Source of the DNA: Streptomyces pactum
GTDB taxonomy: Bacteria > Actinomycetota > Actinomycetes > Streptomycetales > Streptomycetaceae
DNA: 64,000 nt
Direction of reading: 5' to 3'
Assembly (NCBI RefSeq): GCF_002005225.1
Contig: NZ_CP019724.1
Location: 558,001 to 622,000 of the forward strand
Numbering within the stretch: the first letter of the stretch is position 1; each line of letters opens with the position of its first letter. Of the stretch, positions 11,596 through 29,326 are shown one piece after another. A model generated the notes under the pieces. The model was not told where the DNA came from. It did not search any database and saw only the letters and a list, made by a program, of their open reading frames with translations. The position numbers were made by a program, and so were the translations under genes.

Positions 11596-11898
11596 TCACT
11601 GGGTAGTGACGGGGTGCCAGGGCGCGTCGGCTCGAGTGGGCAGGGCGTCGGAGGCCAGCCGGAGTGCGAAGACTGGTCGGTTGCCGGGGACCGGGCCGAG
11701 GTAGTGGTGTCCGGTCATGTGGCACCAGGCGGGCAGATCGAGCGGGGCCGCCGGGTCGGTGGCGATGACGTGGACGACGGTGCCCGGCACGGCGTCGTCG
11801 ATCTCCTTGCGCAGGCGCAGCAGGAGGGTGACGCAGAGCAGGCCGGTGCCGTCGACGGTGATGTCCGGCGTGGGGGTGTCGGGGTTCATGGTGCTCAT
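11596..11898 (-). CDS. TusA/SirA-like sulfur-carrier protein
   Basis: A 100-aa protein of the TusA fold: a TVDGTGLLCVTLLLRLRKEI helix then VVHVIATDPAAPLDLPAWC. The conserved TusA cysteine is kept in GLLC, but the usual CPxP motif has become CVTL. Such proteins pass sulfane sulfur as a protein persulfide between rhodaneses, desulfurases and acceptor enzymes. The ATG overlaps the stop of the upstream MFS gene by four bases. It is the last gene of a five-gene minus-strand run with a cysteine desulfurase, a likely sulfur donor. A start at 11889 is also possible. Confidence 0.75.
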   Translation of the reverse strand: MSTMNPDTPTPDITVDGTGLLCVTLLLRLRKEIDDAVPGTVVHVIATDPAAPLDLPAWCHMTGHHYLGPVPGNRPVFALRLASDALPTRADAPWHPVTTQ

Positions 11899-13160
11899 CG
11901 GCGGTAGGCGGTGGCGACAACGGCGGGCAGGAGAGCGAGGGAGAGGATGCCGCCGGTGAGGGCAAGGGCGGGGTAGCCGGTGGCGGCGACCATGATGCCG
12001 GAGGCCATGCCGCCGGTGGCGCCGGCGATGGCGATGGAGACGTCGATCAGGCCCTGGGTCTTGGCTCGGGTGGCCAGCGGCACGGTGTCCGTGATGATCG
12101 CGGTGCCGGAAACCAGGCCGAAGTTCCAGCCGAGCCCCAGCAGGGCCAGGGCGAGTGCGAGGAGGGCGACGGAGTCGCCCGGCGCGAGCGCGGCGAGGAC
12201 GCCGGCGGCCAGCAGGGTCATGCCGGAGGCGGCCGCGACTTCGATGCGGCCGTAGCGGTCGACGAGCCAGCCTGTCAGAGGTGAGGGCAGGTACATGGCG
12301 CCGATGTGGATGGCGATGACGAGGCCGGATGCGGCGGTGCCGTGGCCGTGGTCGTGCATGTGCACCGGCGTCATCGTCATGATCGCGACCATGACGAGCT
12401 GGGTGAGGACCATGACCAGGGCGCCCAGAACTACGCCTCCGCGGCCCTCGCTCGGGTCGGCGACGGCCGCGGTGGTCGTGCCGGTGGTGGCTTCGGTGTC
12501 CTTGGTCTCGGCAACGGTGCGGGCCAGGAGCAGCGGGTCGGGGCGTAGCCAGAGGGCGAGGACGAGGGCGGCTAGCGCATAGGCGGCGCCGGAAAGGATG
12601 AAGAGCCCGGCGAGGTGGGGGATGCCGAGGGCTTCGGCGAAGGTGCCGGTGGGGGCGGCGAGGTTGGGGCCGGCTACACCGCCCACAGTGGTGGCGACCA
12701 GGACGGTGGAAACGGCGCGGGCGCGGTGTCCGGGTGCGGCGAGGTCGGCTCCGGCGTAGCGGGCCTGGAGGTTGGTTGCGGTGCCGGCACCGTAGACGAA
12801 CAGGGCGGTGAACAGCAGGACGGGGTTGTCCAGGATCGCGGCGGTGATGACACCGGCCGAGCCGATGGCGCCGGTGAGGTAGCCGGTAGCGAGGCCGGGA
12901 CGGCGGCCACGGGCCTGGGAGATGCGGCCGACGACCACGGCGGCGAGGGCGGATCCGGCGGTGAACAGGGCGCTGGGCAGTCCGGCGAGGCTGGTGGAGC
13001 CGAGCATGTCCTGAGCGAGGAGGGCGCCGACGGTGACGCCTGCGGCGAGGCCCGCTCCGCTGAGGACCTGGGAGGCGACCAGGACGCGCAGGATGCGGTG
13101 CTGGGCCTGGACGGGGTCGGATATGTGGGCCGCCGTGCCGGCGGATGGGGAGCTGGTCAT
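11895..13160 (-). CDS. MFS transporter of the sulfur island, His-rich loop
   Basis: The 421-aa protein has 12 predicted helices and MFS text such as VVGRISQARGRRPG (motif A). Near residue 264 it has HMHDHGHG, a histidine cluster that might bind a metal ion. The nearest known types are drug- or metabolite-exporting MFS proteins; the substrate is not readable. Start ATG at 13160 has GAAAGAGA just upstream; a TTG at 13172 is less likely. It overlaps the TusA-like gene and follows the PLP-enzyme gene by 82 bases, so the cargo may be a sulfur compound. Confidence 0.8.
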   Translation of the reverse strand: MTSSPSAGTAAHISDPVQAQHRILRVLVASQVLSGAGLAAGVTVGALLAQDMLGSTSLAGLPSALFTAGSALAAVVVGRISQARGRRPGLATGYLTGAIGSAGVITAAILDNPVLLFTALFVYGAGTATNLQARYAGADLAAPGHRARAVSTVLVATTVGGVAGPNLAAPTGTFAEALGIPHLAGLFILSGAAYALAALVLALWLRPDPLLLARTVAETKDTEATTGTTTAAVADPSEGRGGVVLGALVMVLTQLVMVAIMTMTPVHMHDHGHGTAASGLVIAIHIGAMYLPSPLTGWLVDRYGRIEVAAASGMTLLAAGVLAALAPGDSVALLALALALLGLGWNFGLVSGTAIITDTVPLATRAKTQGLIDVSIAIAGATGGMASGIMVAATGYPALALTGGILSLALLPAVVATAYRR

Positions 13161-13242
13161 GGTCTCTTTCAACAGTGGTGCAGGCGTGCTGCACCGGCCC
13201 GGTCCGGCAGGGCGGCGGGCCGGTGCACGCGGGGCTGGTGCG

Positions 13243-14427
13243 TCAGTCGGCGTCCAGGGCCTGGGCGAGGTCGGCGATCAGGTCGTCGGCGTCTTCGAGG
13301 CCGACGGACAGTCGGATCATGCTGTCGGCGATGCCCCGCTTGGCGCGCTCGGCCGGGTCCATGCCGTGGTGGGTGGTGGTGATGGGCTGGGTGACCAGGG
13401 ACTCGACTCCGCCGAGGCTGGGCGCGATGGCGAACAGGAGCAACCGGTCCACCACCGCGGCGGTCTGGTCGGCGTCCGCGTTGAGGACGGCGCTGAGCAT
13501 GCCGCCTCCGCCTCGCATCTGCGCGTCCACGATGCGTTTCTGTTCGCCGGTGGCCAGGCCCGGGTAGTGGGACCGGGCGACACGGGGGTGCGTGTGGAGG
13601 AAGGCGGCGACGGCCGCGGCGGCGTCGTTCTGTGCGCGGACCCGGACGGGAAGGGAGCGCAGGGAACGGGCGAGGAGGAAGGCGGTTTCGGGGGCGATGA
13701 CCTGGCCGAGGTTCTTGCGCCACATCGCGACCGGGGCCAGCAGTTCCGCGGGGCCGATGAGGGCGCCGGCGGTCAGGTCGGAGTGCCCGCCGAGGTACTT
13801 GGTCGCGGAGTGCACGACCAGGTCCGCACCATGCTGGAGAGGGTTCTGGTTGACCGGGGTGGCGAAGGTGTTGTCCACCACCGTCAGCGCGCCGGCCGCG
13901 CGGGCCTGGGCGGAGATGGCGGCGATGTCGAAGACGGTCAGGGTGGGGTTGGCCGGGGTTTCGAAGAACACGACCCGCGTCCGGCCGGTCAGCACCTGCG
14001 GCAGCCGGCCGACCTCGTCGGCGCGCAGGAACGTGGTCGTGATGCCGACCTGTGGCAGGTTGTCGCCGAGGAGTTCGAACGTTCCGCCGTAGACCTCGCC
14101 GATACACACGATGTGGCCGCCGGTCCGGCAGTGGGCGAGGAAAGTGGCGGCTTCGGCGGCCATCCCGGACGAGAATGCCAGGGCCTGCTCGCCGCCTTCG
14201 AGGTCGGCGAGTTTGGCCTCGGTCGCACGGATGGTGGGGTTGAGGCCGTAGCGGGTGTAGAGGTTGCCGGTCTTGCGCCCTTCGACGACGTCGAGGAGGT
14301 CGGCGGTGGAGTCGAACGCGAACGTGGAGTGGTTGTAGAGCGGGGTGTGGACGGCGCCTTCGGCGTCGCGGCGCTCGCCGGCGTGGACACTGCGGGTGGA
14401 CAGTCCGTACGCGGTCGTCTCGGTCAT
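13243..14427 (-). CDS. Cys/Met-metabolism PLP enzyme (gamma-synthase/lyase type)
   Basis: A 394-aa fold-type-I PLP enzyme. The internal aldimine lysine sits in SATKYLGGHSD, the substrate site in NLYTRYGLNPT, and the PLP phosphate loop in FSSGMAAEA. The length and motifs fit cystathionine gamma-synthase, cystathionine gamma-lyase and methionine gamma-lyase, which cannot be separated by eye. In this setting a lyase that frees sulfide or persulfide from cysteine, cystine or methionine would feed the island. It lies between the cysteine desulfurase gene and the MFS gene on the same strand. Confidence 0.87.
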   Translation of the reverse strand: MTETTAYGLSTRSVHAGERRDAEGAVHTPLYNHSTFAFDSTADLLDVVEGRKTGNLYTRYGLNPTIRATEAKLADLEGGEQALAFSSGMAAEAATFLAHCRTGGHIVCIGEVYGGTFELLGDNLPQVGITTTFLRADEVGRLPQVLTGRTRVVFFETPANPTLTVFDIAAISAQARAAGALTVVDNTFATPVNQNPLQHGADLVVHSATKYLGGHSDLTAGALIGPAELLAPVAMWRKNLGQVIAPETAFLLARSLRSLPVRVRAQNDAAAAVAAFLHTHPRVARSHYPGLATGEQKRIVDAQMRGGGGMLSAVLNADADQTAAVVDRLLLFAIAPSLGGVESLVTQPITTTHHGMDPAERAKRGIADSMIRLSVGLEDADDLIADLAQALDAD

Positions 14428-14459: not shown

Positions 14460-15650
14460 CTAACCGGTCAGCTCGGTCACTTCGTGGGCAGCCGCAACGA
14501 GAGCTGATGCCGCTGTCTCGATGTCCTCGTGTCTGGTCCAGCGGCCCAGGGAGAGCCGCAGTGCGCCGAGCGCGCGGGCCGGCGCGAGGCCCATGGCGGT
14601 CAGCACCGGCGAGGGGGTGTGGGTGCCGCTGTGGCAGGCCGATCCGGTCGAGGCGGCGATCTGGTGGCAGGCGGCGAGGAGTTCGTGACCGAGGACGCCA
14701 TCGACGCTGACGTTCAGGGTGTTCGGCAGACGGTGCGCGTCGGGACCATTGAGGTGCATGCGGCCAGGCAGGGCAGCCGTCAGCCGTTGGTGGAGGTCGT
14801 CGCGCAGGGCCGCGATGCGGGCCGGGGCGCCGGAGGCCAGTTCGGCAGCCGCGATCTGGGCGGCGGTGCCGAGCGCGACGGCCAGGGCGACGTTCTCCGT
14901 GCCCGCCCGCAGGCCGCGCTCCTGCCCGCCCCCGTAGACGACCGGCTCCAGCCGTACCCCGTCGCGTACGAAGAGGGCGGCGGCGCCCTTGGGCGCGTAC
15001 ATCTTGTGCCCCACCGTTGTGAGCAGGTCCACGCCCAGCTCACGGACATTGATCGAAACCTTGCCCACCGCCTGGGCAGCGTCGCAGTGGAACAGCGACC
15101 CGCGCTCGTGAGCGAGCGCAGCGAGCTCCGCGATCGGCTGGAGAGCGCCGGTCTCGTTGTTCGCCGCCATCACCGACACCAGCACCGTGTCCTCGGTGAA
15201 CGCGCCGACCAGCGCCGCCGGGGAAAGGAGCCCCTCGCCGTCGACCGGCAGCACGGTCACCCGCGCGCCGTGCAGCCGCTCAAGGGCCCGGCACGTCTCC
15301 AGGACGGCAGGGTGCTCGGTGGCCTGGGTGATCACATGCGGGTGACGGCGGCCAGAGCCAAGGACCGCGCCCCGCAGGGCGAGCAGGTCGGCTTCGGACC
15401 CGGAGCCGGTGAACGCGACTTCGCCGGGCCGGGCACCGATCAGGTCTGCGACCTGGGCGCGGGCTTCGGCGAGAGCCCGTCGAGGCTCCTGGGAGAACGG
15501 GTGGCTGCTGGAGGGGTTGCCGAAGAAGTCGGCCAGGTACGGGAGCATCGCCTCGGCGACGCGCGGGTCGACCGGGGTGGTGGCGTTGTAGTCCAGGTAC
15601 ACCGGGCCGTCGGCCAGCCCCGGATGAACGTCTGGCGTCCCGGCGATCAC
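14460..15650 (-). CDS. cysteine desulfurase (IscS/NifS type)
   Basis: This 396-aa PLP enzyme starts with the family hallmark VYLDYNATTPVDPRVAEAM. The PLP lysine lies in VGHKMYAPKG, and the catalytic cysteine lies in the loop TGSACHSGTHTPS. It removes sulfur from cysteine to give an enzyme persulfide. The GTG start at 15650 overlaps the stop of the ArsR-rhodanese gene (GTGA), so it is translated under that regulator. It probably serves the TusA-like carrier rather than general Fe-S assembly, since no isc or suf genes are nearby. A relic of a related gene lies at 29252. Confidence 0.9.
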   Translation of the reverse strand: MIAGTPDVHPGLADGPVYLDYNATTPVDPRVAEAMLPYLADFFGNPSSSHPFSQEPRRALAEARAQVADLIGARPGEVAFTGSGSEADLLALRGAVLGSGRRHPHVITQATEHPAVLETCRALERLHGARVTVLPVDGEGLLSPAALVGAFTEDTVLVSVMAANNETGALQPIAELAALAHERGSLFHCDAAQAVGKVSINVRELGVDLLTTVGHKMYAPKGAAALFVRDGVRLEPVVYGGGQERGLRAGTENVALAVALGTAAQIAAAELASGAPARIAALRDDLHQRLTAALPGRMHLNGPDAHRLPNTLNVSVDGVLGHELLAACHQIAASTGSACHSGTHTPSPVLTAMGLAPARALGALRLSLGRWTRHEDIETAASALVAAAHEVTELTG

Positions 15651-16312
15651 ACGAGCTCCCCGGCGTCGACGGGCATGTCGGACAAGCGCCACTCGAGCAT
15701 GCCGTCGTTCATGCGCAGCGCGCGTCGTCCACGGTCTGTCAGCAGCCGAACGGCGTCGTAGGCGAGTGCGCAGTACTCGCCGCGGCAGTAGACGACGATC
15801 TCCACGTGCTCGGGCAGTTCGTCGATCCGATGGGCCAGCTCCGCTACCGGGATGGAGAGAGCACCGGGGATGTGCCCGGCGAGATATTCCTCCATCGGCC
15901 GCACATCCAGCACTACTGCCGCACCGGACCGGACACGGGCCGCCAGCTCTTCGCGGTTGATCTCCTGTGCGCCGTCTTCCCCGAGGTAGGCGTCGCGGGC
16001 TGCGGGAACGGACGACTGGTGCGTCTCGGCCACCTTGCGCAGCAGCGCGAACAGTTGGGCGACGTCGTCGCCGGCGAGCCGGTAGTGGATTCGCACGCCT
16101 TCACGGCGAGTGGCGACGAACCCGGCCCGCTTGAGGGTCTGCAGGTGGGCCGATGCCGTGGTCAGATTCAGGCCGGCTGCTTTCGCGAGCGCGTCCACAG
16201 TGCGCTCGCCCTGGGCTAGGAGATCGAGCAGTTCCAGCCTCTTTCCACTGGCCAGTGCTTTGCCGCTGACCGCGAACGCGTCGTAAAGCCGCGCCCTGGT
16301 GTTCTCCGCCAC
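15647..16312 (-). CDS. ArsR-rhodanese fusion regulator, copy 1
   Basis: About 221 aa. Residues 8-80 form an ArsR winged helix (GKRLELLDLLAQGERTVDAL, recognition helix LTTASAHLQTLKR). Residues 120-220 form a rhodanese domain with active-site loop CRGEYC (Cys176, Cys181). The DNA-binding half has no cysteine, so sulfur sensing most likely occurs in the rhodanese loop. The start is uncertain between GTG 16315 and GTG 16312; GGAGGA lies just before both. A 9+9-bp inverted repeat covers this ribosome-binding site and is a likely operator. It heads the minus-strand operon with cysteine desulfurase, the PLP enzyme, MFS and TusA-like genes. Confidence 0.85.
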   Translation of the reverse strand: MAENTRARLYDAFAVSGKALASGKRLELLDLLAQGERTVDALAKAAGLNLTTASAHLQTLKRAGFVATRREGVRIHYRLAGDDVAQLFALLRKVAETHQSSVPAARDAYLGEDGAQEINREELAARVRSGAAVVLDVRPMEEYLAGHIPGALSIPVAELAHRIDELPEHVEIVVYCRGEYCALAYDAVRLLTDRGRRALRMNDGMLEWRLSDMPVDAGELV

Positions 16313-16315
16313 CAC

Positions 16316-16683: not shown

Positions 16684-16701
16684 TTCTAGATATCTTTAGA
16701 A
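16684..16701. promoter_or_regulatory. 18-bp operator of ArsR-rhodanese 2
   Basis: TTCTAGATATCTTTAGAA is an imperfect palindrome 25 bases before the ATG of the second ArsR-rhodanese gene. It matches a site before the DsrE gene (20237) at 15 of 18 positions, the expected pattern of one regulator acting on itself and on a target operon. Confidence 0.75.
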
Positions 16702-16726: not shown

Positions 16727-17395
16727 ATGTCGGAGCGAGAAGTGCGTGAGGGCCTGTTCGGCCAGCTCGCTCGCATCGGCAAGGCCATCAGCAACCCCAA
16801 GCGCATCGAACTGCTCGACATCCTGGGGCAGGGAGAGCGCTCGGTGGAGTCTCTCGCCACCGTCACGAATATGACGGTGGGCAACACCTCCAGCCATCTG
16901 CAGGTCCTGCGGGGGGCTCGCATGGTCGAGACCCGCAAGGTGGGCACGAAGGTCATCTACTCGCTCGCGGACGAGCGGGTGGCGTGTTTCGTGCGTGAAC
17001 TGTGGACGCTGGCAGACGCTCGCCTCGCTGAGGTGGAGCAGTTGATCCGTGAGTACCTGCAGGGCGAGGAGACGCTCGAGCGGGTCACCAAGGAAGAGCT
17101 CGTCGCCCGCTCGCTGAGCGGCGATGTGTTCATCATCGATGTGCGGCCGGCCGAGGAGTATGCGGCCGGGCACATCCCCGGAGCCACGTCGGTACCGTTC
17201 GACGAGTTGAGTGACCACCTGTCCCGGTTGCCTGCAGACCTGGATATCGTCGCGTACTGCCGTGGCCCGCACTGCGTCTTCGCTCCGAAGGCGGCGCAGA
17301 TACTCAGGCAGCACGGACTTCGGGCGATGGTGCTCGAGGACGGCATGCCGGAATGGCGTCAGGGGGGACTTCCTGTGAGCACTGTCAGCAGTTAA
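16727..17395 (+). CDS. ArsR-rhodanese fusion regulator, copy 2
   Basis: 222 aa. Residues 10-85 form an ArsR winged helix (NPKRIELLDILGQGERSVES, recognition helix VGNTSSHLQVLR). Residues 120-218 form a rhodanese domain with loop CRGPHC (Cys178, Cys183); the only other cysteine is Cys87. It is clearly related to copy 1 but diverged. ATG at 16727 follows GAAGGGACCGGGGG at a slightly long distance. It is the first gene of the plus-strand arm, and the shared 18-bp operators suggest that it represses itself and the DsrE/flavoprotein genes. Release by sulfane sulfur is inferred from the rhodanese domain. Confidence 0.85.
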   Translation: MSEREVREGLFGQLARIGKAISNPKRIELLDILGQGERSVESLATVTNMTVGNTSSHLQVLRGARMVETRKVGTKVIYSLADERVACFVRELWTLADARLAEVEQLIREYLQGEETLERVTKEELVARSLSGDVFIIDVRPAEEYAAGHIPGATSVPFDELSDHLSRLPADLDIVAYCRGPHCVFAPKAAQILRQHGLRAMVLEDGMPEWRQGGLPVSTVSS

Positions 17396-17592: not shown

Positions 17593-18501
17593 GTGAAGAA
17601 GATCCAACTGTTCCTTGCCCTGTCCGTGCTTGCTGCCACCGCCGCGTGCGGCGGCGACGCATCGGGCGAGACCAACGCCCAGGGCATTCCGGCGAAGTTA
17701 CGCGTGGGGATCATCCCCAATGTGGCCCCGGACAAGCAGGGGGCCAAATACGATCCGCTGCGGAAGTACCTGGCGGACAAGCTCGACACCGACGTCGAAC
17801 TGTTCGTCGCCACCGACTACGCGGGCGTCGTGGCCGCCCTCGCGGCCGAGAAGGTCGATCTCGCCTACGTCGGCGGCCTGACCTATGTACAGGCCGAAGA
17901 GCAGGTCGACGTGCAGCCGCTGGTCACCGAGGTCGACGAGGAGACCGGCACCAAGGAGTACCTGTCCGGCATCGTCGTCCGTGACGACGCCCCGTACGAA
18001 AGCCTGAAGGACGTGCTGGACGCCGAGGCCAAGTTCGCTTTCGGGGACGTCAGTTCCACTTCCGGAAGCCTGTACCCGCGCGTCATGCTGAACGCGGCCG
18101 GTGCCGAGTGCTCACCCAAGACGATCGACAAGTGCCCGCCGCTGTCGAAGGTTTCCTTCACCGGCGGTCACGACGCCACCGCCCAGGCGGTCCTGAACGG
18201 CTCGGTGGACGCCGGCGGCCTGGAAGTGCGGATCCTGCACCGACTGGAACGCGACGGCAAGGTCCCCAAGGGCGAGCTGAAGGTCGTCCAGTCGCACAAG
18301 GTCATGGGCTACCCCTGGGTCATGCGGACCGCGCTCGGCGACACGGCGGCGTCCACGTTGACGGACGTGTTCGAGGCGATGAAGGACCCCAAGCTGCTCG
18401 ACCTGATGGGCACCACCGGCTACCAGTCGGTGACCGAGGCCGAGTACGAGCCGCTCAAGAAGCACGCCGAGGACCTCGGCCTGCTCACCGCCGGCCGGTG
18501 A
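17593..18501 (+). CDS. PhnD-like ABC transporter substrate-binding lipoprotein
   Basis: 302 aa beginning MKKIQLFLAL, with a short signal peptide and Cys19 as a likely lipid anchor (TAAC, a weak lipobox). The mature part follows the PhnD family: RVGIIPNVAPDK near 38, DYAGVVAALAAEKVDLAYVG, and ASSTSGSLYPR-like text (DVSSTSGSLYPRVML). PhnD proteins bind phosphonates and phosphite; the same fold also binds other oxyanions, as in the arsenite-binding AioX. Placement between a sulfur-sensing regulator and sulfur enzymes suggests a sulfur oxyanion or organosulfur ligand. The GTG start at 17593 heads a three-gene ABC operon. Confidence 0.82.
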   Translation: MKKIQLFLALSVLAATAACGGDASGETNAQGIPAKLRVGIIPNVAPDKQGAKYDPLRKYLADKLDTDVELFVATDYAGVVAALAAEKVDLAYVGGLTYVQAEEQVDVQPLVTEVDEETGTKEYLSGIVVRDDAPYESLKDVLDAEAKFAFGDVSSTSGSLYPRVMLNAAGAECSPKTIDKCPPLSKVSFTGGHDATAQAVLNGSVDAGGLEVRILHRLERDGKVPKGELKVVQSHKVMGYPWVMRTALGDTAASTLTDVFEAMKDPKLLDLMGTTGYQSVTEAEYEPLKKHAEDLGLLTAGR

Positions 18502-20236: not shown

Positions 20237-20254
20237 TTCAAGAGATCTCTAGAA
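20237..20254. promoter_or_regulatory. 18-bp operator before the DsrE gene
   Basis: TTCAAGAGATCTCTAGAA is a palindrome at 16 of 18 positions and lies 13 bases before the GTG of the DsrE gene. It matches the site before ArsR-rhodanese 2 at 15 of 18 positions. No copy is seen before the PhnD-like gene. Confidence 0.78.
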
Positions 20255-20618: not shown

Positions 20619-20631
20619 GGTGGGAGCACCC

Positions 20632-21973: not shown

Positions 21974-24127
21974 ATGTCTGTCGGCACGTCCGAGCCCGTC
22001 CACACCCAGGAACCGCCGGGCCGGCGCACCCTCGCCGACCGCACCGCAGCGGTCATGGTCGGCCGCCGCAAGATCGTCATGGTCGCCTGGCTGGTCCTGG
22101 TGCTGCTCGCGGCCCCGTTCGCCGTCACTCTCAACGGCGCCCTTTCCGGCGCCGGTTGGACGGCCTCCGGATCCGAGAGCCAGGAGGTCCGCGAAGAGCT
22201 CCGCGAGGACTTCGCAGACCTCGGCGCCGAAGCCGCCGTCATCGTCGTCCAGGTGCCGGCCAAGGACGACCTGGACACGGCCGTGAGCGGCCTCATCGAC
22301 TCCCTCGACGGCCAGGAGGACGTCCGCAAGGTCACCGATCCCCGCACCCAGCCGGCGCAGGCCGGTCTCATCAGCGAGGACGGCACGACCGCACTCGTCC
22401 CGGTCCACCTGCAGGCCGACGACGAAGCCGGGCTCCCCGAAGCCGCCGCCGCGGTGGGCGACACGGTCAAGGACAGCGACCTGCCCAAGGGCGCCACCGC
22501 GGACGTCACCGGTGAGTGGCCGATGTGGGCGGACTTCAACGAGTCCAACGAGAAGGCCATGCTCAAGGCCGAACTCATGTCCGGCCTGCCGATGATGATC
22601 CTGCTCGTCATCGTCTTCGGCAGCCTGATCGCCGCGGGCATGCCCATGATGCTGACCGTGGTCGGCATCGCCGTCGCCTACGGCACCCTGCACCTGATCA
22701 CCATGGCCACACCCGTGTCGGTGTGGTCGATGAACTTCTCCATGATGATCGGCATGGCGCTCGGCATCGACTACAGCCTGTTCATCGTCACCCGCTACCG
22801 AGCCGAGCGCGCCAAGGGCCACGGCGCCCAGGCAGCGCTGGCCACCACCCTCGCGACCTCCGGCAAAGCGATCTTCCTCTCCGGCCTCGCACTGATCATG
22901 GCGCTCGGCGCGGTGTTCCTGCTGCCGGTCATGGTCTTCCGGTCCATGGCCCTCGGCATGATCATCGCGGTCGTCGCGGTCGTCGCCGCCGCCCTCACCC
23001 TGCTGCCGGCCGTTCTGGCAGCCCTCGGCGACAGGGTGCTGCGCGGACGCGCCGAGCGCAGCCACCGCAGCGAAGCACGCTGGGGCCGCTGGGCGGACGG
23101 TGTCGTACGGCGTCCCGCCCTCGGCCTGGTCGCCGGCCTGGTCCTCCTCGGCGCCCTGACCGCACCGGTCATCGGAGTACAACTGGGCATGCCGGGCGCC
23201 CGCGTCGTCGACTCCGGATACTCCAGCCGCGACGGCTACGAGACCATGACCGACGCCTTCGGACCCGGTGCCGCAGCCACCATCTATGTCACCACCCCCA
23301 CCGGTGACGCGGACAAGGTCATCAGCGCGGCCGAGGACCGGTCCGGCGTCAAGGAAGCGGCGCTCGCCGCAGAACCGGCCGACACGGGCCGCACCGTCGT
23401 CCGGATCACCCCGACCACCGCCATCGACGACAACAAGACCTCCGACCTCGTCAGCGACCTGCGCTCCGACCTCGACGAGAACGTACCCGCGGCCAAGGTG
23501 GGCGGCCCCGCCGCGCAGAACCACGACATGACCGAGGCGCTGGCCGCCTCAGCGCCGTGGATCATCGCCCTGGTACTCGTCATGTCGCTGATGATGATGC
23601 TCATCGTCTTCCGCAGCGTCGTCATCGCCCTGGTGTCGATCGCGATGAACCTGCTCACCGTCGGCGCCGCGTTCGGTATCGCATCGATCATCTTCCAGCA
23701 CGGTGTGGGCGCCTCGCTGATCGGCATCGAATCCCAGGGCTTCATCAACGCCTGGGCACCGGTGTTCTTCTTCGCGATCCTCTTCGGCCTGTCGATGGAC
23801 TACCAGCTGTTCCTGCTCGCCTCCGTCCGCGAGAAGTACGAACTCAGCGGTGACACCCGCACCGCCGTGCGCGAGGGCATCGCCGCGACCGGACGGCCCA
23901 TCACCAACGCCGCGGTCATCATGGTCATCGTCTTCGTGGCCTTCGGCGTCACCGGACCCATCCCGCCGACCGAACTCGGCATCACCCTGGCCATCGCCGT
24001 CATCCTGGACGCCACCCTGGTGCGGATGCTGGTCGTGCCCGCCTCCCTCGCCGTCTTCGGCAACAGCAACTGGTGGATGCCGCGCTGGCTCGACAGGGTG
24101 CTGCCGGCCTTCTCCTTCAAGCACTGA
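21974..24127 (+). CDS. MMPL/RND-family membrane exporter
   Basis: 717 aa with 12 predicted helices in two repeats, each with a large outer loop after the first helix. The repeated family texts are GMALGIDYSLFIVTRYRAE and FGLSMDYQLFLLASVREKY, which include the proton-relay Asp-Tyr pairs. Actinobacterial MMPL proteins export lipids, siderophores or small hydrophobic molecules. Its place inside the sulfur island, between the flavoprotein and the molybdoenzyme genes, is unusual. The substrate is unknown. ATG at 21974 follows GGAGGTTCACCCCT. Confidence 0.88.
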   Translation: MSVGTSEPVHTQEPPGRRTLADRTAAVMVGRRKIVMVAWLVLVLLAAPFAVTLNGALSGAGWTASGSESQEVREELREDFADLGAEAAVIVVQVPAKDDLDTAVSGLIDSLDGQEDVRKVTDPRTQPAQAGLISEDGTTALVPVHLQADDEAGLPEAAAAVGDTVKDSDLPKGATADVTGEWPMWADFNESNEKAMLKAELMSGLPMMILLVIVFGSLIAAGMPMMLTVVGIAVAYGTLHLITMATPVSVWSMNFSMMIGMALGIDYSLFIVTRYRAERAKGHGAQAALATTLATSGKAIFLSGLALIMALGAVFLLPVMVFRSMALGMIIAVVAVVAAALTLLPAVLAALGDRVLRGRAERSHRSEARWGRWADGVVRRPALGLVAGLVLLGALTAPVIGVQLGMPGARVVDSGYSSRDGYETMTDAFGPGAAATIYVTTPTGDADKVISAAEDRSGVKEAALAAEPADTGRTVVRITPTTAIDDNKTSDLVSDLRSDLDENVPAAKVGGPAAQNHDMTEALAASAPWIIALVLVMSLMMMLIVFRSVVIALVSIAMNLLTVGAAFGIASIIFQHGVGASLIGIESQGFINAWAPVFFFAILFGLSMDYQLFLLASVREKYELSGDTRTAVREGIAATGRPITNAAVIMVIVFVAFGVTGPIPPTELGITLAIAVILDATLVRMLVVPASLAVFGNSNWWMPRWLDRVLPAFSFKH

Positions 24128-24220: not shown

Positions 24221-24832
24221 ATGCCCCGATTCGGCATGCTCATCGACTTGAACACCTGTATCGGCTGTCACGCCTGCTCGGTGGCCTGCAAGAACGAGTT
24301 CGACGTGCCACTCGGAGTCTTCCGCGACACGGTCAAGGTCGTCGAGGACGGCGAGTACCCCAACGCCGGCAAGCACTTCATACCCGTGCTGTGCAACCAG
24401 TGCGAAGACGCTCCCTGCCTGAACGCCTGCCCCACCGACGCGATCACCCGCCTGCCCAACGGCGAGGTCGTCATCGAGGAAGGCGACTGCAACCTCAACC
24501 GGTTCTGCATGGCCGCCTGCCCCTACGACGCCATCTACGAAGACCCGCAGACCCAGACCGCATCGAAGTGCACCTTCTGCGAACACCGCACCTCCAAGGG
24601 CGGCGAGCCCGCATGCGTGGAGGCGTGCCCCACCGGCTGCCGCGTCTTCGGCGACCTCGACGACCCCGACAGCAAGATCTCGCGGATGGCCAGCGACAAC
24701 GAGATCGACGTCTGGAAGCCCGAGGCGAACACCCAGCCCAAGGTCTTCTACGTCGACCCCAAGCGGGCCCTGCCCCTCATCGCCGTCGACGGCGTCCAGG
24801 TCGACCAGAGCACCGACCTCAAGGGACGGTGA
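24221..24832 (+). CDS. PsrB/PhsB-like four-cluster ferredoxin subunit
   Basis: 203 aa with four ferredoxin cysteine groups: CIGCHACSVAC, CNQCEDAPCLNAC, CNLNRFCMAAC and CTFCEHRTSKGGEPACVEAC. This is the DmsB/PsrB/TtrB subunit, which passes electrons between the membrane quinone subunit and the molybdenum subunit through four [4Fe-4S] clusters. One group reads CNLNRFCMAAC, where the first spacing is longer than the common CxxC, a small oddity. It is first of the reductase genes and lies four bases before the NrfD gene. It has no signal of its own and would be exported with the Tat-signal catalytic partner. Confidence 0.9.
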   Translation: MPRFGMLIDLNTCIGCHACSVACKNEFDVPLGVFRDTVKVVEDGEYPNAGKHFIPVLCNQCEDAPCLNACPTDAITRLPNGEVVIEEGDCNLNRFCMAACPYDAIYEDPQTQTASKCTFCEHRTSKGGEPACVEACPTGCRVFGDLDDPDSKISRMASDNEIDVWKPEANTQPKVFYVDPKRALPLIAVDGVQVDQSTDLKGR

Positions 24833-24835: not shown

Positions 24836-25729
24836 GTGGCGACCACACTCGCGCAGACAGCACCGATCGAGCACGCTCAGCCCTGGGGCACGCTGCTCGC
24901 GGTGTACTTCACTCTCATCGGGATTCCCAGCGGCCTGACCCTCATGGTGTGGTGGCACCGCAACCGCTACCCGACCGCGGCCCTCAGTCTGGACTGGCGG
25001 GCCGGCTGGGCCACCCTCGGCCTGCTCGCGGCGGCCGGGCTGCTGCTCACCATCGACCTCGGCCGGCCCGAACGCTTCCACCTGATGCTCACCGAGTTCG
25101 GCAACTGGGACTCGCCCATCTCCCTCGGCGCGAAGATCATCGCGGTCAAGACGTTCCTCATCGCCGTCGCGCTCTACCTCCTGTGGCGCCGCCGGACCGC
25201 GTCCCGCGACACCCCTGCTCAAGCCCGTGGCATGACGGCCCGTTTCGATACCTCGGTGGCATGGCTGCTGGGAGCGTCCAGCGTCGCGCTCGCCGTATAC
25301 CCGGTCGCTGTCCTCGCCCGAACCTGGGTCTCACCGCTGGCGGCCACCAACAGCTCCGCGCTGCTGTTCCTGATCACCTCGCTGCTGATGGGCTGCGCCA
25401 CCGTCCTGATCCTCGACGCCGTGAGCCCGAACGAGGCCGAACAGCAACGCGGCCTGAACAGGATCACTCTCGCCCTGCTCATGGCCTACACCGTCACCCT
25501 CGTATTCGGCGCCGCCTCCGTCAGCGGCGGACCGGCGAAGAAGTCCCTGGACACGGTCCTCACAGGTGAGCACGCGCCGCTGTTCTACACCTGCGTCATC
25601 GGCGCCGGCGTTCTCCTCCCCGCGGCCGCACTCGCCCTCGCCGGGAAGCGTCGCTGGGCCCGTCTGCCGGCGGCCGGCGGACTGCTCGCCGGAACCGCGG
25701 CCATCCGCTACCTCATCTTCACGGCCTGA
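24836..25729 (+). CDS. NrfD/PsrC-like membrane anchor
   Basis: 297 aa, about nine predicted helices; NrfD family text includes LGRPERFHLML after the second helix and an early GIPSGLTLMVWWHR. This subunit exchanges electrons between quinones and the ferredoxin subunit and, in some relatives, couples to ions. GTG start at 24836. The gene lies between the ferredoxin and catalytic subunit genes, an order of B-C-A instead of the A-B-C order found in many psr/phs operons. Confidence 0.87.
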   Translation: MATTLAQTAPIEHAQPWGTLLAVYFTLIGIPSGLTLMVWWHRNRYPTAALSLDWRAGWATLGLLAAAGLLLTIDLGRPERFHLMLTEFGNWDSPISLGAKIIAVKTFLIAVALYLLWRRRTASRDTPAQARGMTARFDTSVAWLLGASSVALAVYPVAVLARTWVSPLAATNSSALLFLITSLLMGCATVLILDAVSPNEAEQQRGLNRITLALLMAYTVTLVFGAASVSGGPAKKSLDTVLTGEHAPLFYTCVIGAGVLLPAAALALAGKRRWARLPAAGGLLAGTAAIRYLIFTA

Positions 25730-25748
25730 CCTCGGGGGGAGACGTCAC

Positions 25749-28313
25749 ATGACCACCGACACCCACACCACCAGCGGCAACGAGGCAGCCGGGTCTTCAC
25801 CGACCTGGGAGCTGTCCCGCCGGGATCTGCTGCGCATCGGCGCCGCCGCCGGCGCCGCCGTGGCCGGCCTCGGCGCCATCGAGATCGCCCGCGACCCGCA
25901 GACCGGCGTCACCCCCGAAGGAGCCGGTGCGAGGCCTGTGACGGTTCCTTCCCTGTGCCAGATGTGCACCACCGCCTGCGGCATCGTCGGTCACGTCGCC
26001 GACGGACGCCTGCTGAGAATCACCGGCAACCCGGAGGACCCCAACAGCCAGGGTTCGGTCTGCGCCAAGGGCGTCGCCGGCCCCTCGGTGCTCTACGACC
26101 CGTTCCGCATGCTGTACCCGCTCAAGCGCGTGGGCGAGCGGGGCTCGGGACGCTGGCGGCGCGTCAGCTGGGACGAGGCGTACGACGAGATGGCCACCCG
26201 TCTGAAGGAGATCCGGGAACGCGGCAAGCCGGAGGAGTTCGCATTCCAGCAGGGCCGCAACCGCTCCGCCGACATCGTCGCCCGGTTCCTCAACGCCTAC
26301 GGCACCCCTTCGCACTTCAATCACCGGGCCCTGTGCTCGTCCAACCGGCGAGCCGCGATCGCCACCACGATCGGTGAGTCCGACTGGGACCTCGGCGACT
26401 TCGAGAACAGCCAGTACGTACTCAACTTCGGCTCCAACTGGGCCGAGGCGCACCAGGGCCACATCCCCGTCGCGATCCGCATGATGCGCGCCCGCCGCAA
26501 GGGCGCCAAACTCGTCACTTTCGAGACCCGCATGTCCAACACCGCGGCGCTCTCGGACGAGTGGTTCTGCGTCAAGCCGGGCACCGACGGCCTGATCGCC
26601 CTGGCCATGGCGAACGTGATCTGCCGCGAACAGCTGTGGGACAAGCAGTGGCTCGACGCCTGGTCGAACTACCCGGCCGCGAAGGTCGCCGAACACGTCG
26701 CCCAGTACACCCCGGCCTACGCCGAACAGGAAAGCGGCGTCCCGGCCGCGGTGATCGAACGGATCGCCCGCGAGTTCGCCGCCGCCGCACCGCAGTGCAC
26801 CACCATCTGCAACCGCGGGTCCGCCTCCCATCGCAACGGCTACTACAACGACCGGGCCATCACCATGCTCAATGCCCTGGTCGGCAACATGGGCAAGGTC
26901 GGCGGCTGGTGCTGGCACCCCAACTCCGCCTGGGACAAGAAGGCCCTCCCCGAACCCGGGCCGGTACCGGACAAGCCCAAGGCGAAGAGCGTCATCGCAG
27001 AGGCCAAGGACTGGCCCCTGGCCAACGCCTTCGAAGGCAAGAAGATGAAGGTCGCCGAGGTCATCTACCTGTGGATCAAGGAAGGCCGGCAGAAAGTGTC
27101 GGCCTTGATGACCTACAACGCCGACACTGCCTGGTCCTTTCCCGAAGCCCAACTCGTCAGAAGCGTGCTGAAGGACGAGAGGCTCATCCCGTTCCACGTG
27201 TGCATCGACGTGATGTACTCAGAGACCGCGCATCTCGCCGACCTGATCCTGCCGTGGGCCACCTATCTCGAGCGGTGGGACATCGACTCCCGCCCTCCGC
27301 AGAGCCTGGTCGACTACGTGGGACTACGTCAGCCCGTAGTGGAACCGCGCGGCGAGTCCAAGGACATCCGTGAGATCTTCCCCGAACTCGCCCGCCGCAT
27401 CGGCGGCGGAATGCAGACCTACTTCCCCTGGAAGACCACCGAGGACTACCTGGAGGAGTACTTCAAACCCGTCCCGGGCGGCTTCCCCCGCATGAAAGCC
27501 ACCGGCATCTGGATCGACCCGGCCAAGAAGCCGCTCTACGAGCCCCACCTGAAACGCCTCACACCGGACGAGCTCGACGGCGCGGAGGAAGACACCCGGA
27601 CCGGCATCTTCTACAAGGGCAAGGACGAGAAGACCGGCGGGCCGCTCGCGATCGGTGTCCGGATCGCGGGGGTTCCGCGCCGCGGCTTCCTCACCCCCTC
27701 ACGCAAGGTCGAGATCCACAGCGACTTCGTCGTCGGTGCGGGCAAGGACGTCGGGCGCGAGATACAGCCGCTGCCGGTGTACGAACCGATACCCAGTCAC
27801 CAGCGGGACCTCCCCGACGACCACCTCATCATGACCAGCTACAAGATCAACGTGCACAACGCCCACCGCACCATGCAGTCCAAGTGGCTGCAGGAGATCT
27901 CCCACACCAATCCCGCCCTGCTCAACAGGGCCACCGCCGACAAGCTGGGCATCGCCGACGGCGACTGGATCGACGTCACCAGCTTCAGGCCCGACGATCC
28001 CGCCGTCCCCGGGGGTGACGGCTCCAAGGTCGGCACCCTGCGCACCCGCGTCCGGCTCACCGAGGGCGTCCACCCCATGGTGTTAGCCATCGCGCACAAC
28101 GCCGGCCGCAGCGTCGGCGGCGCCTACGCCACCAACGGCAAGGACACCGCGGACAACCCGGGCTACGGCGAAGCCACCGACCGCGATCTGGACCGCCTGT
28201 GGTGGAAGGGCGCAATCAGCGTCCCCCAGAACGACCTGCTGCCCATCTACCCCGACCCGGTCGTCGGCGGCCAGTCCTACCACGACACCGTCGTGCAGAT
28301 ACGGAAGGTCTGA
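25749..28313 (+). CDS. Tat-exported molybdenum oxidoreductase, Psr/Phs type
   Basis: 854 aa. The Tat motif SRRDLLRIG (Arg24-Arg25) and following hydrophobic stretch mark export. A [4Fe-4S] site has Cys70, Cys73, Cys77 and Cys105 (CQMCTTAC ... VCAKG). The likely molybdenum ligand is Cys196 in NHRALCSSNRR, as in polysulfide, thiosulfate and arsenate reductases rather than Ser (DMSO) or Asp (nitrate) types. The C terminus is a molybdopterin-dinucleotide-binding domain. In a B-C-A operon with DsrE, SQR and TusA genes nearby, a sulfur substrate (polysulfide, thiosulfate, tetrathionate or sulfite) is most likely. Direction, reduction or oxidation, is open; Streptomyces are mainly aerobic. Confidence 0.88.
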   Translation: MTTDTHTTSGNEAAGSSPTWELSRRDLLRIGAAAGAAVAGLGAIEIARDPQTGVTPEGAGARPVTVPSLCQMCTTACGIVGHVADGRLLRITGNPEDPNSQGSVCAKGVAGPSVLYDPFRMLYPLKRVGERGSGRWRRVSWDEAYDEMATRLKEIRERGKPEEFAFQQGRNRSADIVARFLNAYGTPSHFNHRALCSSNRRAAIATTIGESDWDLGDFENSQYVLNFGSNWAEAHQGHIPVAIRMMRARRKGAKLVTFETRMSNTAALSDEWFCVKPGTDGLIALAMANVICREQLWDKQWLDAWSNYPAAKVAEHVAQYTPAYAEQESGVPAAVIERIAREFAAAAPQCTTICNRGSASHRNGYYNDRAITMLNALVGNMGKVGGWCWHPNSAWDKKALPEPGPVPDKPKAKSVIAEAKDWPLANAFEGKKMKVAEVIYLWIKEGRQKVSALMTYNADTAWSFPEAQLVRSVLKDERLIPFHVCIDVMYSETAHLADLILPWATYLERWDIDSRPPQSLVDYVGLRQPVVEPRGESKDIREIFPELARRIGGGMQTYFPWKTTEDYLEEYFKPVPGGFPRMKATGIWIDPAKKPLYEPHLKRLTPDELDGAEEDTRTGIFYKGKDEKTGGPLAIGVRIAGVPRRGFLTPSRKVEIHSDFVVGAGKDVGREIQPLPVYEPIPSHQRDLPDDHLIMTSYKINVHNAHRTMQSKWLQEISHTNPALLNRATADKLGIADGDWIDVTSFRPDDPAVPGGDGSKVGTLRTRVRLTEGVHPMVLAIAHNAGRSVGGAYATNGKDTADNPGYGEATDRDLDRLWWKGAISVPQNDLLPIYPDPVVGGQSYHDTVVQIRKV

Positions 28314-29212
28314 TGAGTCCTGTGAACCCCCCCGTCGGCGCCGACCACCTCAAGGCGTACAGCGGCCTGCTGCGCCTGGCCGTCAGGCTCCTGGCCCGCG
28401 AAGTCGACACCGCGCTGTACCGGCAGATGTCGAACGCCGACGGCCACAGCAGCAAGGACCACGCCCCGCTGATCGACTCCGATCTCGCCGACGCCGGCGA
28501 ACACCACGCTCTGGTCGAGCTCGCCACCGAGTACTGCCGGCTGTTCATCGGCCCCCAGCCCGCCTGCCCGCCGTACGCCTCGGCGCACCAAGGGGAGGTC
28601 AAACTCGGTGGCCGCGCCGCCCACGACGTCGAGACCTTCATGGCCCGCCACAGCCTGCACCCGGTCATCGCCCAGCAGGACGCCGTCCTCGAGGCTGACC
28701 ACCTGTCGGTCGAGCTCGCCCTCCTCGCCCACCTGTACTCCGTCGCTGCGGGCGCCAATGAGAGTGACCTGACGATCGAGCAAGCCTGGACCGCGAGTCA
28801 CGAACTGCTGCACACCCACATCAAGCCCTGGGCCTTCAGCTACTTGCGCGACCTCGCGCAAGCCGCTGAGTACGCCCCCTACACCACGATCGCTCACCTC
28901 GTTCACCGCGTTCTGGACGAGGCCTGCGCCTGGCCCGCCCGCACGCTCACCATCCCCTCGGAGGCAAGCACCATGGTCACCGTCTACTCCACCACCTGGT
29001 GCGGCTACTGCGACCGCCTGAAGAAGCAACTCGATCGCGAGAACATCGCCTACACCGAAGTTGACATCGAAACCGACCCCGAAGCGGCACAGACCGTCAT
29101 GAAGGCCAACGGCGGCAACCAGGTCGTCCCCACCGTGATCTTCTCCGACGGCACCGCCATGACCAACCCCGGCGTCCTCCGGATCAAGCAGCACCTCGCG
29201 AAGACCGCCTGA
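28313..29212 (+). CDS. TorD-family chaperone fused to mycoredoxin
   Basis: 299 aa in one frame. Residues 1-215 are an all-helical TorD/DmsD-type chaperone (TEYCRLFIGPQPACPPYAS is the typical motif) that would hold the molybdoenzyme until cofactor insertion. Residues 221-299 are a complete mycoredoxin/glutaredoxin-like protein, MVTVYSTTWCGYC at its start and VVPTVIFSDGT at the cis-Pro site. GGAGG lies nine bases before an internal ATG at 28973, so the 79-aa mycoredoxin may also be made alone. The stop of the reductase gene overlaps this start by one base (TGATG). I know of no common TorD-mycoredoxin fusion. Confidence 0.88.
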   Translation: MSPVNPPVGADHLKAYSGLLRLAVRLLAREVDTALYRQMSNADGHSSKDHAPLIDSDLADAGEHHALVELATEYCRLFIGPQPACPPYASAHQGEVKLGGRAAHDVETFMARHSLHPVIAQQDAVLEADHLSVELALLAHLYSVAAGANESDLTIEQAWTASHELLHTHIKPWAFSYLRDLAQAAEYAPYTTIAHLVHRVLDEACAWPARTLTIPSEASTMVTVYSTTWCGYCDRLKKQLDRENIAYTEVDIETDPEAAQTVMKANGGNQVVPTVIFSDGTAMTNPGVLRIKQHLAKTA

Positions 29213-29251
29213 AATCTCGGGAAGACCGCGAGGCCTGCCAAGCATCTGCAA

Positions 29252-29326
29252 GACGGTCCCGTCCACCTCGACTACAACGCCACCACCCCGGTCGACCCGA
29301 ACGTGCTCGCTGCGATGCTGCCCTAG
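29252..29326 (+). pseudogene. 5' relic of a cysteine desulfurase gene
   Basis: These 25 codons read DGPVHLDYNATTPVDPNVLA then AMLP and a stop. They match the start of the intact cysteine desulfurase encoded at 14460-15650 (GPVYLDYNATTPVDPRV) but differ in sequence, so this is a diverged copy, not a recent duplicate. No start codon or further enzyme follows. It marks a rearranged right edge of the sulfur island and is inverted relative to the intact gene. Confidence 0.8.

Follow-up and report, generated by a model that had tools for sequence, protein, structure and literature searches.

A two-armed gene island of Streptomyces pactum that may import and reduce a selenium oxyanion

The window that we analyzed is a 64,000-nucleotide stretch of the Streptomyces pactum genome, in which positions 11596–29326 carry an island with a desulfurase relic and 16 intact genes, split into divergent arms of five genes on the minus and 11 on the plus strand. 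A first-pass annotation had counted 14 genes in two divergent arms; the arms stand, but the recount gives 16. Its family assignments were upheld by profile matches for the two ArsR–rhodanese fusions, the phosphonate-binding protein, ABC ATPase, and PhnE, DsrE, the FCSD/SQR-like flavoprotein, MMPL, the 4Fe-4S and NrfD proteins, the molybdopterin oxidoreductase with a TAT signal, and the TorD-type chaperone. We also found the overlapping starts it had described, with 4 bp shared by the TusA and MFS genes and by the PhnC and PhnE genes, and a gap of 1 bp between the DsrE and SQR genes. The terminal relic (~29237–29326, plus strand) preserves the N-terminal part of another NifS-like gene, matching 22 of 29 residues of the NifS N terminus in related locus L047 before a stop; intact copies lie at the same place, directly after the chaperone gene, in L008, L047, and L012. 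Consensus promoters numbered zero, versus 0.8 in shuffles. Elsewhere in the window, at 4894–7985, there is a CsoR/TauE/MBL/YgaP-rhodanese module, of a type that we take to be typical of sulfane-sulfur stress.

At the outer end of the minus arm, we rejected a 532-aa frame (11596–13194) as a gene, since it corresponds to an MFS transporter gene (11895–13160, minus; PF07690, 114 bits) read out of frame, and then to a TusA-like sulfurtransferase gene (11596–11898, minus; PF01206, 38 bits on the overlapping frame), whose cysteine lies in LLCVTL and not in CPxP. These are followed by a Cys/Met metabolism PLP enzyme (13243–14427, minus; PF01053, 414 bits), closest to methionine gamma-lyase with a TIGR01328 score of 391 bits that is below the cut-off of 549.7, and by a NifS/IscS-like cysteine desulfurase (14460–15650, minus, start uncertain within 15602–15692; PF00266, 241 bits), which scores 425.6 with TIGR03402, below the cut-off of 530.75. 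NifS-like copies are 59–63% identical in L008, L047, L012, L099, L133, and L136, and 50% identical in L011. TusA-like homologs adjoin ArsR–rhodanese in L008 and L047 (53 and 61% identity over ~70 aa).

The two arms meet at a pair of regulators, each combining an ArsR domain (PF01022) with a rhodanese domain (PF00581). Regulator B (15647–16315, minus; CRGEYC loop) has homologs in the fetched related loci, and regulator A (16727–17395, plus; CRGPHC loop) is 92–93% identical in L008/L047 and 78% identical in L012. Two near-identical 18-bp palindromes, assigned to neither strand, precede regulator A (TTCTAGATATCTTTAGAA, 16684–16701) and the DsrE gene (TTCAAGAGATCTCTAGAA, 20237–20254). No such palindrome occurred in 100 shuffles of the window, a slightly looser pattern, allowing at most one mismatch, has no further site in the 8.55-Mb genome (control, 0), and the palindrome recurs with a few changes in three related loci. 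Shared operators, as previously proposed, are thus supported at two sites, but the window scan found no third one before 24221. From its sequence, the palindrome is a candidate inverted-repeat operator of an ArsR-type sulfane-sulfur repressor. The ArsR sulfur sensors BigR and YgaV are among the PDB matches of the island regulator, which shares the ArsR fold with the BigR/SqrR/YgaV type but differs in having an attached rhodanese domain with a CxxxxC loop and in scoring 44 bits with the BigR model, against a cut-off of 155. We rejected an arsenic reading of the name ArsR, as these ArsR domains are fused to rhodaneses and none of the island genes was found to belong to an arsenic family.

Downstream of regulator A lies a candidate importer composed of a PhnD/PtxB-type oxyanion-binding protein (17593–18501, plus; PF12974, 196 bits) with an N terminus resembling a lipoprotein signal by eye, a PhnC-type ABC ATPase (18550–19290, plus; PF00005), and a PhnE-type permease (19287–20183, plus). 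While the permease passes the PhnE equivalog cut-off (TIGR01097, 248.5 versus 216.7), the ATPase scores below that for PhnC (TIGR02315, 163.5 versus 266.1), and the equivalog cut-off for PhnD is likewise unmet. The 16 solved-structure matches of PhnD bind phosphite, phosphonate, or arsenic, with PtxB the best and ArrX and AioX weaker, which is why an arsenic reading via PhnD was also rejected; no sulfate or thiosulfate binder is among them. As in the PtxABC/PhnDCE phosphite–phosphonate importers, the phosphite pocket retains its STS, His, and capping Tyr, but the Asp holding the Tyr is an Asn and the gene context is one of chalcogen chemistry. This Asn is found in all 17 aligned PhnD proteins; since it is shared by the three from genomes without the divergent SelD type described below, it is no selenium mark. 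The window PhnD belongs to the same superfamily as the TIGR04553 "putative selenate" binding protein, with a score (141.8) below the cut-off of 250.

Four further genes follow. A DsrE-family protein with a CCGTC motif (20268–20618, plus; PF02635, 73.6 bits) is followed by an SQR/flavocytochrome-c-type flavoprotein (20620–21813, plus; PF07992 and PF21706), an MMPL/RND transporter (21974–24127, plus; PF03176, 279 bits), and a 4Fe-4S subunit of the PsrB/TtrB type with 16 cysteines (24221–24832, plus; PF13247). The flavoprotein, best related among solved structures to the 5n1t sulfide dehydrogenase, has the FAD-type fold and two redox cysteines (Cys164 and Cys342) of sulfide:quinone oxidoreductases, an activity that is putative here, with an NF049943 score of 169 bits that is below the cut-off of 525. 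The TusA-like and DsrE-like proteins recall the YedE/YedF selenium genes, for which TusA-like and DsrE-like domains with a CGxC motif are described in a selenium context (PMC5322559); in the island these are separate genes, no YedE was seen, and YedF membership is over no cut-off.

The 4Fe-4S subunit is encoded with an NrfD/PsrC-type membrane subunit (24836–25729, plus; PF03916, 70.5 bits), a Psr/Phs-type molybdoenzyme (25749–28313, plus; PF04879, PF00384, and PF01568 over cut-off), and a TorD/DmsD-type chaperone (28316–29212, plus; PF02613 and PF00462) fused to a mycoredoxin-like glutaredoxin (WCGYC; TIGR02200, 92.8 versus a cut-off of 89.5). TAT export of the molybdoenzyme is predicted from an RR motif seen by eye, the PF10518 score (20.2 bits) being just below the cut-off of 22.7. 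The gene set thus has the FeS subunit, NrfD-type anchor, and TorD chaperone of a Psr/Phs/Srr-type operon, and the complex has the corresponding N-terminal 4Fe-4S site, Mo-bisPGD subunit, and Cys at the Mo-ligand position: Cys196 aligns with a Cys of Thermus thermophilus Psr (2vpw) that serves as the Mo ligand. Both the A and the B subunit of the island enzyme find their best PDB match in 2vpw (2vpw_B for the latter), which shares subunit make-up and the aligned Cys with the island enzyme, although at only 241.6 bits. The nearest curated enzyme model is the PhsA thiosulfate reductase equivalog NF012032, which the 915-aa frame matches with 365.8 bits, below the cut-off of 694; the model scores are PhsA 366, Fdh-alpha 208, and TtrA 104. 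Formate dehydrogenase was therefore rejected as the reason for the SelD linkage reported below, given also the ligand region ...LCSSN.... Among the matches listed (120 relatives), the family forms a tight group of 62–85% identity followed by a drop to 49%.

The first-pass annotation knew of no described pathway with these parts, which does not hold for the reductase half. The Srr respiratory selenite reductase operon of Bacillus selenitireducens is described as comprising a TAT-exported Mo catalytic subunit, a 4Fe-4S subunit, a membrane anchor, a chaperone, and a rhodanese (PMC12481199), a likeness to the island at the level of the parts list; the island adds PhnDCE, DsrE, SQR, NifS, and the ArsR–rhodanese regulators. 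According to the literature, the PsrA/PhsA/SrrA clade includes selenite reductase, while SrdA of the SrdBCA selenate reductase belongs to a TtrA/SrdA clade (PMC10100899). SrdBCA likewise pairs an exported Mo enzyme with a membrane anchor, in a B-C-A order read from the operon name, but the island enzyme scores far higher with PhsA than with TtrA. A literature search found no paper on ArsR–rhodanese with polysulfide reductase in Streptomyces.

We then compared gene neighborhoods in relatives, where genes were called by a codon-usage script with approximate starts, and where the names of MFS, UbiB-like, CMD-type, and ClpC-like neighbors come from inspection of the sequence by eye or from resemblance to a gene of another locus. 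Every one of the 14 related loci has FeS and NrfD genes beside its molybdoenzyme gene, ArsR–rhodanese, PhnDCE–DsrE, and NifS recur, and the island core is shared by actinomycetes and two MAGs that bear a proteobacterial label. Separation of the two arms, named beforehand as evidence against the island, was not seen, since parts of both co-occur: ArsR–rhodanese, NifS, and TusA from one arm with PhnDCE, DsrE, and Psr from the other. This does not extend to the Cys/Met PLP gene, which has no homolog in the fetched neighborhoods, or to the MFS gene, whose sole homolog there is a weak match in L007 (38%).

The relatives also link the locus to genes for selenophosphate synthetase (SelD), SelA, SelB, tRNA-Sec, senA, and senB. 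In Actinomadura KC216, a pair encoding SelD2, a divergent SelD type, and SelA2 (SelA over cut-off) adjoins DsrE–ArsR–rhodanese–PhnDCE–Psr; Amycolatopsis palatopharyngis has Psr–TorD–ArsR–rhodanese–SelD2 and then SenB and SenA, both over cut-offs; and ~21 kb in Herbidospora hold NifS, ArsR–rhodanese, DsrE–PhnECD, tRNA-Sec, SelB2, and SelA2–SelD2, with Psr 24 kb further. A MAG labelled deltaproteobacterial, which has the molybdoenzyme, encodes a TIGR04553 protein (329.6, cut-off 250) ~5 kb from SelD. Among 297 genomes of one actinomycete family, a sample in which members of the same genus do not count as independent, PhsA is found in five, PhnD in 11, and SelD2 in 26. All five PhsA carriers have PhnD and SelD2, and 8 of the 11 PhnD carriers have SelD2, in seven cases on the same contig 8–21 kb away; hypergeometric probabilities for co-occurrence range from 2.5e-8 to 3.5e-6, uncorrected for kinship. 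Conversely, of the 26 genomes with SelD2, 18 have no such PhnD and 21 have no PhsA, many of these assemblies being incomplete. In the remaining three PhnD carriers, PhnDCE without SelD2 adjoins a radical SAM gene, and the 20 kb retrieved around it contain no DsrE gene.

SelD is present in 10 of 14 molybdoenzyme carriers and absent in four, including the window's genome, where none scores over the cut-off and which is accordingly not classed as a SelD-dependent selenium user. At least two distinct full SelD copies occur in 7 of the 10 SelD-positive carriers, compared with 0 of 69 genomes in a class sample (one has two fragments). Copy number was rejected as a signal because a pair of ordinary SelD genes is common in one genus of the family sample, and we therefore relied on the SelD2 type. 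In a 28-row tree, the 11 ordinary actinomycete SelD proteins form one clade (99/98), while the split of all SelD2 from the rest reaches only 69/90. We found no paper linking selenate, a PhnD-type ABC transporter, and SelD.

Among the relatives, tRNA-Sec has an ACA anticodon in five loci and AUA in one (over the Rfam threshold for the four tested), and an otherwise invariant cysteine of a DUF6073 protein is encoded by TGT in five loci and TAT in one, matching these anticodons. These relatives thus pair a non-UCA tRNA-Sec with the corresponding codon at a redox Cys site, the pattern of sense-codon tRNA-Sec recoding, with selenocysteine in DUF6073 as a candidate; both lie near enediyne-type genes. 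No paper on DUF6073 was found, none on enediynes and selenium was relevant by title and abstract among the matches listed, and DUF6073 was not found in the window's genome. UGU-coded selenocysteine in the relatives' molybdoenzyme was rejected, its TGT codons being scattered with no one conserved site. In S. aidingensis, an ordinary SelD, a UCA tRNA-Sec, and SelB-/SelA-like genes (by eye) adjoin formate dehydrogenase on another contig.

Since this rare, regulated kind of cluster often lies, in related soil bacteria, beside genes for building selenium into proteins and natural products, the island may be dedicated to selenium uptake and reduction, and we regard it as an evenly balanced proposition that it imports a selenium oxyanion and couples this to membrane-linked reduction with persulfide/perselenide sensing. 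The substrate would be an inorganic selenium oxyanion, handled by a relay of sulfane-sulfur chemistry. The PtxB-like protein and PhnCE would import a pyramidal XO3 anion, preferably selenite, judging from pocket and context, and the Tat-exported, quinol-linked FeS–NrfD–Mo enzyme of Psr/Srr type may reduce the oxyanion outside the membrane, from selenate to selenite or from selenite to Se0. By the chemistry of their families, DsrE, the SQR-like flavoprotein, the rhodanese domains, and the NifS-like enzyme could hand on bound S/Se. Via the private palindrome, regulator A would repress both itself and the DsrE operon, until freed by a persulfide or perselenide on its rhodanese dithiol. In SelD-positive relatives, the product may feed selenocysteine or selenoneine pathways, while the window's strain would have lost, or never had, such a sink; there, the island may be retained because it serves respiration or detoxification.

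The earlier reading was of a regulated system for import or sensing and redox conversion of a sulfur compound; synteny, the private operator, the exported Psr/Phs-type enzyme, and the PtxB-like protein support such a system for a chalcogen, but sulfur as the element is only partly supported in view of the relatives' selenium genes. A sulfur version, in which thiosulfate, sulfite, tetrathionate, or polysulfide is imported, reduced or oxidized outside, and relayed inside as sulfane sulfur, with opportunistic selenium links in relatives, remains because the window's genome and three other of the 14 carriers lack SelD. It would suit relay families named as sulfur proteins (DsrE, TusA, rhodanese, SQR, and NifS), PhsA as the nearest model, the CsoR/TauE/rhodanese module close by, and Actinokineospora, which has no SelD over cut-off and has CysK-/CysE-like genes (by eye) adjoining. 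We nevertheless find it rather unlikely, as the repeated linkage to SelD2, SelA2, SelB2, tRNA-Sec, and senA/senB would be unexpected for a plain sulfur pathway, and no sulfate or thiosulfate binder is among the 16 solved-structure matches of the binding protein.

Import of another oxyanion (phosphite, arsenite/arsenate, or tellurite), with the molybdoenzyme acting on it or its product, seems improbable: the PtxB, ArrX, and AioX matches, the conserved PtxB ligand residues, and the radical SAM gene beside SelD2-less PhnDCE point that way, yet among the island genes we found neither a phosphite dehydrogenase nor a family for arsenic methylation or efflux, and both the PhsA-like enzyme and the SelD2 link argue against it. 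Slightly more improbable still is a chalcogen-stress island, where SQR, MMPL, rhodanese, and reductase clear toxic sulfide, selenite, or tellurite, and the importer scavenges for some other purpose. A binding-protein importer beside the same regulator would be odd there, and SelD-positive relatives retain the same core, even though repressor–operator logic fits and MMPL and the chaperone–glutaredoxin fusion are confined to the window and L008, L012, and L047 (3 of 14 related loci), three of these four genomes lacking SelD.

A wider form of the selenium reading, which we hold tentatively and with less than even confidence, is that PhnDCE–DsrE and the Psr/Srr-type reductase are a dedicated actinomycete module for selenium uptake, reduction, and delivery. 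In relatives, it would supply either selenoneine synthesis or a private selenocysteine apparatus (SelD2–SelA2–SelB2 and a tRNA-Sec reading UGU or UAU) making a DynF-like DUF6073 selenoprotein in an enediyne-type polyketide cluster, while the window's strain would have the supply module alone. To our knowledge, no specific bacterial selenium importer is yet known. The island, found in cultured actinomycetes and equipped with a private operator, provides concrete candidates for an importer, a reductase, a relay, and a sensor, which makes this question testable, and its relatives point to natural-product clusters that may have their own selenocysteine code.

The window covers bases 558001-622000 of an 8.55-Mb, single-contig genome, and its island (11596-29326) contains 16 intact genes and one relic; the first-pass annotation had assigned the protein families correctly and recognized the relic, but it counted only 14 genes. 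The minus-strand arm encodes a TusA-like protein, an MFS protein, a Cys/Met-type PLP enzyme, a NifS-like desulfurase, and ArsR-rhodanese B, while the plus-strand arm encodes ArsR-rhodanese A, the importer proteins PhnD, PhnC, and PhnE, DsrE, an SQR-like flavoprotein, MMPL, an FeS subunit, NrfD, a TAT-exported molybdoenzyme, and a fusion of a Tat chaperone with a mycoredoxin-like glutaredoxin (28316-29212). The long frame at 11596-13194 was rejected as a single gene. Some 4 kb to the left of the island (4894-7985), genes for an MBL-rhodanese-like protein, TauE/SafE, a CsoR-family repressor, and a YgaP-like rhodanese appear to make up a module of their own for sulfane-sulfur stress.

An 18-bp palindrome lies upstream of both ArsR-rhodanese A (16684-16701) and DsrE (20237-20254). 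It is absent from 100 shuffles of the window even at 3 mismatches, and a whole-genome scan with a slightly looser pattern (≤1 mismatch) matched these two places only, with no match in the genome for a reversed control pattern. Upstream pieces from three related loci (L008, L047, and L012) contain it, with a few changes, at both equivalent places. The palindrome is thus good evidence that one regulator would control two operons; we infer that this regulator binds it and responds to a ligand, and in our reading the copy upstream of ArsR-rhodanese A would overlie the expected position of the -10 box. No such palindrome was found upstream of the FeS gene.

At a threshold of E 1e-100, the molybdoenzyme is rare, being found in 2/392 genomes of the genus sample and 2/394 of the class sample (each time the window's own and one more) and in 5/297 genomes of one other family. 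Among 120 relatives listed, a tight family at 62-85% identity is followed by a fall to 49%. We compared 14 related loci (L007-L017 and L047-L049), all retrieved via the molybdoenzyme with flanks of ~10 kb (the sequences of L014 and L017 end early). FeS and NrfD are present in all 14 (partial in L017), TorD in 13, full ArsR-rhodanese in nine, PhnDCE-DsrE inside the fetched flank in six, NifS in four, and MMPL and the glutaredoxin fusion in three (L008, L012, and L047); in the remaining relatives the chaperone is unfused (151-210 aa). The two arms, previously taken as one unit, belong together in part, because ArsR-rhodanese B (with relatives widespread among annotated loci), NifS, and TusA (homologs in L008 and L047) go with the plus arm, but the Cys/Met PLP gene has no homolog in any annotated related locus and the MFS gene has a weak match in L007 only.

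Any substrate of the island, and the direction of its redox step, are putative. The best solved-structure match of the FeS and molybdenum subunits is Thermus Psr, and alignment with it shows a conserved Cys in the ligand region; among curated models PhsA ranks first, yet far under its cut-off. According to PMC10100899, the selenite reductase SrrA shares a clade with PsrA and PhsA, and PMC12481199 describes the Srr operon as encoding rhodanese proteins and a chaperone besides a TAT-signal molybdenum subunit, an FeS subunit, and an anchor. The nearest solved relative of the window's PhnD is the phosphite-binding PtxB, with ArrX and AioX lower down. PtxB has, according to PMC5700983, a three-oxygen binding motif and a capping Tyr whose cap is held by an Asp. 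The motif and capping Tyr are common to PtxB and the window's PhnD, whereas the Asp is Asn in 17/17 aligned sequences, which is no mark of selenium because three PhnD without the divergent SelD2 also have Asn. Selenite and sulfite, too, are pyramidal XO3 anions, and the pocket would therefore permit selenite without proving it.

Relatives link these genes to selenium. In Actinomadura KC216, SelD-SelA (SelA score 508, cut-off 267.9) adjoins DsrE-ArsR-rhodanese-PhnDCE-Psr. In Amycolatopsis palatopharyngis, SelD adjoins an ArsR-rhodanese that is itself next to TorD and the molybdoenzyme; two genes past SelD are the selenoneine genes SenB (339.5, cut-off 300) and SenA (469, cut-off 420). The fullest relative, Herbidospora, carries over ~21 kb NifS (61%), ArsR-rhodanese, MBL-rhodanese, MFS, a PvdN-like PLP gene, DsrE-PhnE-PhnC-PhnD, an acyl-CoA-dehydrogenase-like gene, a second MFS, a UbiB-like gene, DUF6073 accompanied by two unnamed genes, tRNA-Sec, SelB2 (304.6, cut-off 242.25), SelA2 (481.5), and SelD2; most of the island therefore adjoins a complete Sec system there. 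The Psr genes lie another ~24 kb along, and an ordinary SelD is found elsewhere in the genome. One contig of genome G840 holds PhnDCE-DsrE-SQR and NifS-SelD2-SenA-SenB (sen genes by likeness to Amycolatopsis), and in G781 an ArsR-rhodanese adjoins SenA-SenB-SelD2, the 297-genome search listing no molybdoenzyme match for this genome. The roles of DsrE, SQR, and NifS in handling such substrates are putative.

Two further gene groups recur. Genes for an acyl-CoA-dehydrogenase-like protein, an Rv1680-like binding protein, and an AurF-like protein form a trio that neighbors sen genes in L099 (13362-16548) and L102 (3995-7134) and Psr genes in L009 (12935-15970); the two copies scored, both from L009, fell below cut-offs save for the Pfam family of the binding protein. 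A PvdN-like class V PLP gene adjoins DsrE in L131 (7340-8677), L133 (7211-8566; 356 bits, cut-off 650), and L016 (6032-7213). The L131 copy has an N-terminus resembling that of a TAT-exported lipoprotein and is possibly an outside desulfurase or deselenase.

SelD exceeds its cut-off in 10 of 14 molybdoenzyme-carrier genomes (the window's included, that of L016 left out) vs. 69/246 in the class. Copies linked to the locus are of the divergent type SelD2, which shares 64-71% identity with the Actinomadura copy (51-54% for ordinary actinomycete SelD); in a tree, all SelD2 separate from the rest with a support of only 69/90. Searched with equal settings in 297 genomes of one family, SelD2 occurs in 26 (≥432 bits; next score 349) and window-type PhnD in 11; all five molybdoenzyme genomes carry both. 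SelD2 is present in 8/11 PhnD genomes, on the same contig in seven of these eight, 8-21 kb apart. Hypergeometric values (PhnD with SelD2, 1.6e-7; molybdoenzyme with SelD2, 3.5e-6; molybdoenzyme with PhnD, 2.5e-8) overstate the surprise, given the common descent of the three Herbidospora and of several Nonomuraea. There are counter-cases: 18/26 SelD2 genomes are without PhnD, and 3/11 PhnD genomes have PhnDCE without SelD2, beside a radical SAM gene and with no DsrE in the fetched 20 kb. L128, L129, and L130 are such SelD2-less loci (PhnD ~60% identical), with a CMD-type gene, named by eye, near PhnDCE; the L128 radical SAM gene scores 221 bits against the Rv1681 family (cut-off 380). The main weakness of the selenium interpretation is the lack of any SelD above the cut-off in the strain of the window, as in three other carriers (Actinokineospora, Streptomyces S.PB5, and G284 of the window's genus); this strain may instead use the island on a sulfur substrate, for respiration, or for detoxification.

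In the relatives, the selenium link may extend to decoding. Beside SelB2 lie tRNA-Sec-like genes with anticodon ACA (L065:11487-11580, L066:4980-5072, L110:6092-6184, L133:17534-17627, and L136:18088-18181) or AUA (L116:4720-4815), and 4/4 tested exceeded the Rfam tRNA-Sec threshold (68-71 bits vs. 47; control, the ordinary UCA tRNA of S. aidingensis). The DUF6073 gene of each locus has the matching codon at one otherwise invariant Cys site: TGT where the anticodon is ACA (five loci) and TAT where it is AUA. The ACA loci are few independent cases, from two genera only (two Herbidospora and three g79, taken as Nonomuraea). Of 47 database relatives, 46 have Cys at this site; the other has Tyr and probably comes from the organism of L116. 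A short hairpin lies 3' of the codon in 6/6 loci, where the protein sequence is constrained as well. Recoding of sense codons to Sec, UGU included, is known in principle, according to PMC10778597, which cites Mukai 2016.

With a mean pLDDT of 79 and a pTM of 0.74, the predicted fold of DUF6073 (L065:12385-13107) matches that of the dynemicin-pathway protein DynF (E 4e-10), its sole match below 0.001. The Nonomuraea region with DUF6073 (L056:923-6954) encodes a thioesterase with CalE7 and DynE7 among its solved relatives. It also encodes a PKS that matches DynE8 over part of its length (226 bits); the ketosynthase part scores higher with other PKS. A DynF-like fold, such a thioesterase, and a PKS in one region make a selenium-dependent enediyne-type cluster possible; as a lead, not proof, this suggests that selenoproteins may occur in enediyne-type clusters.
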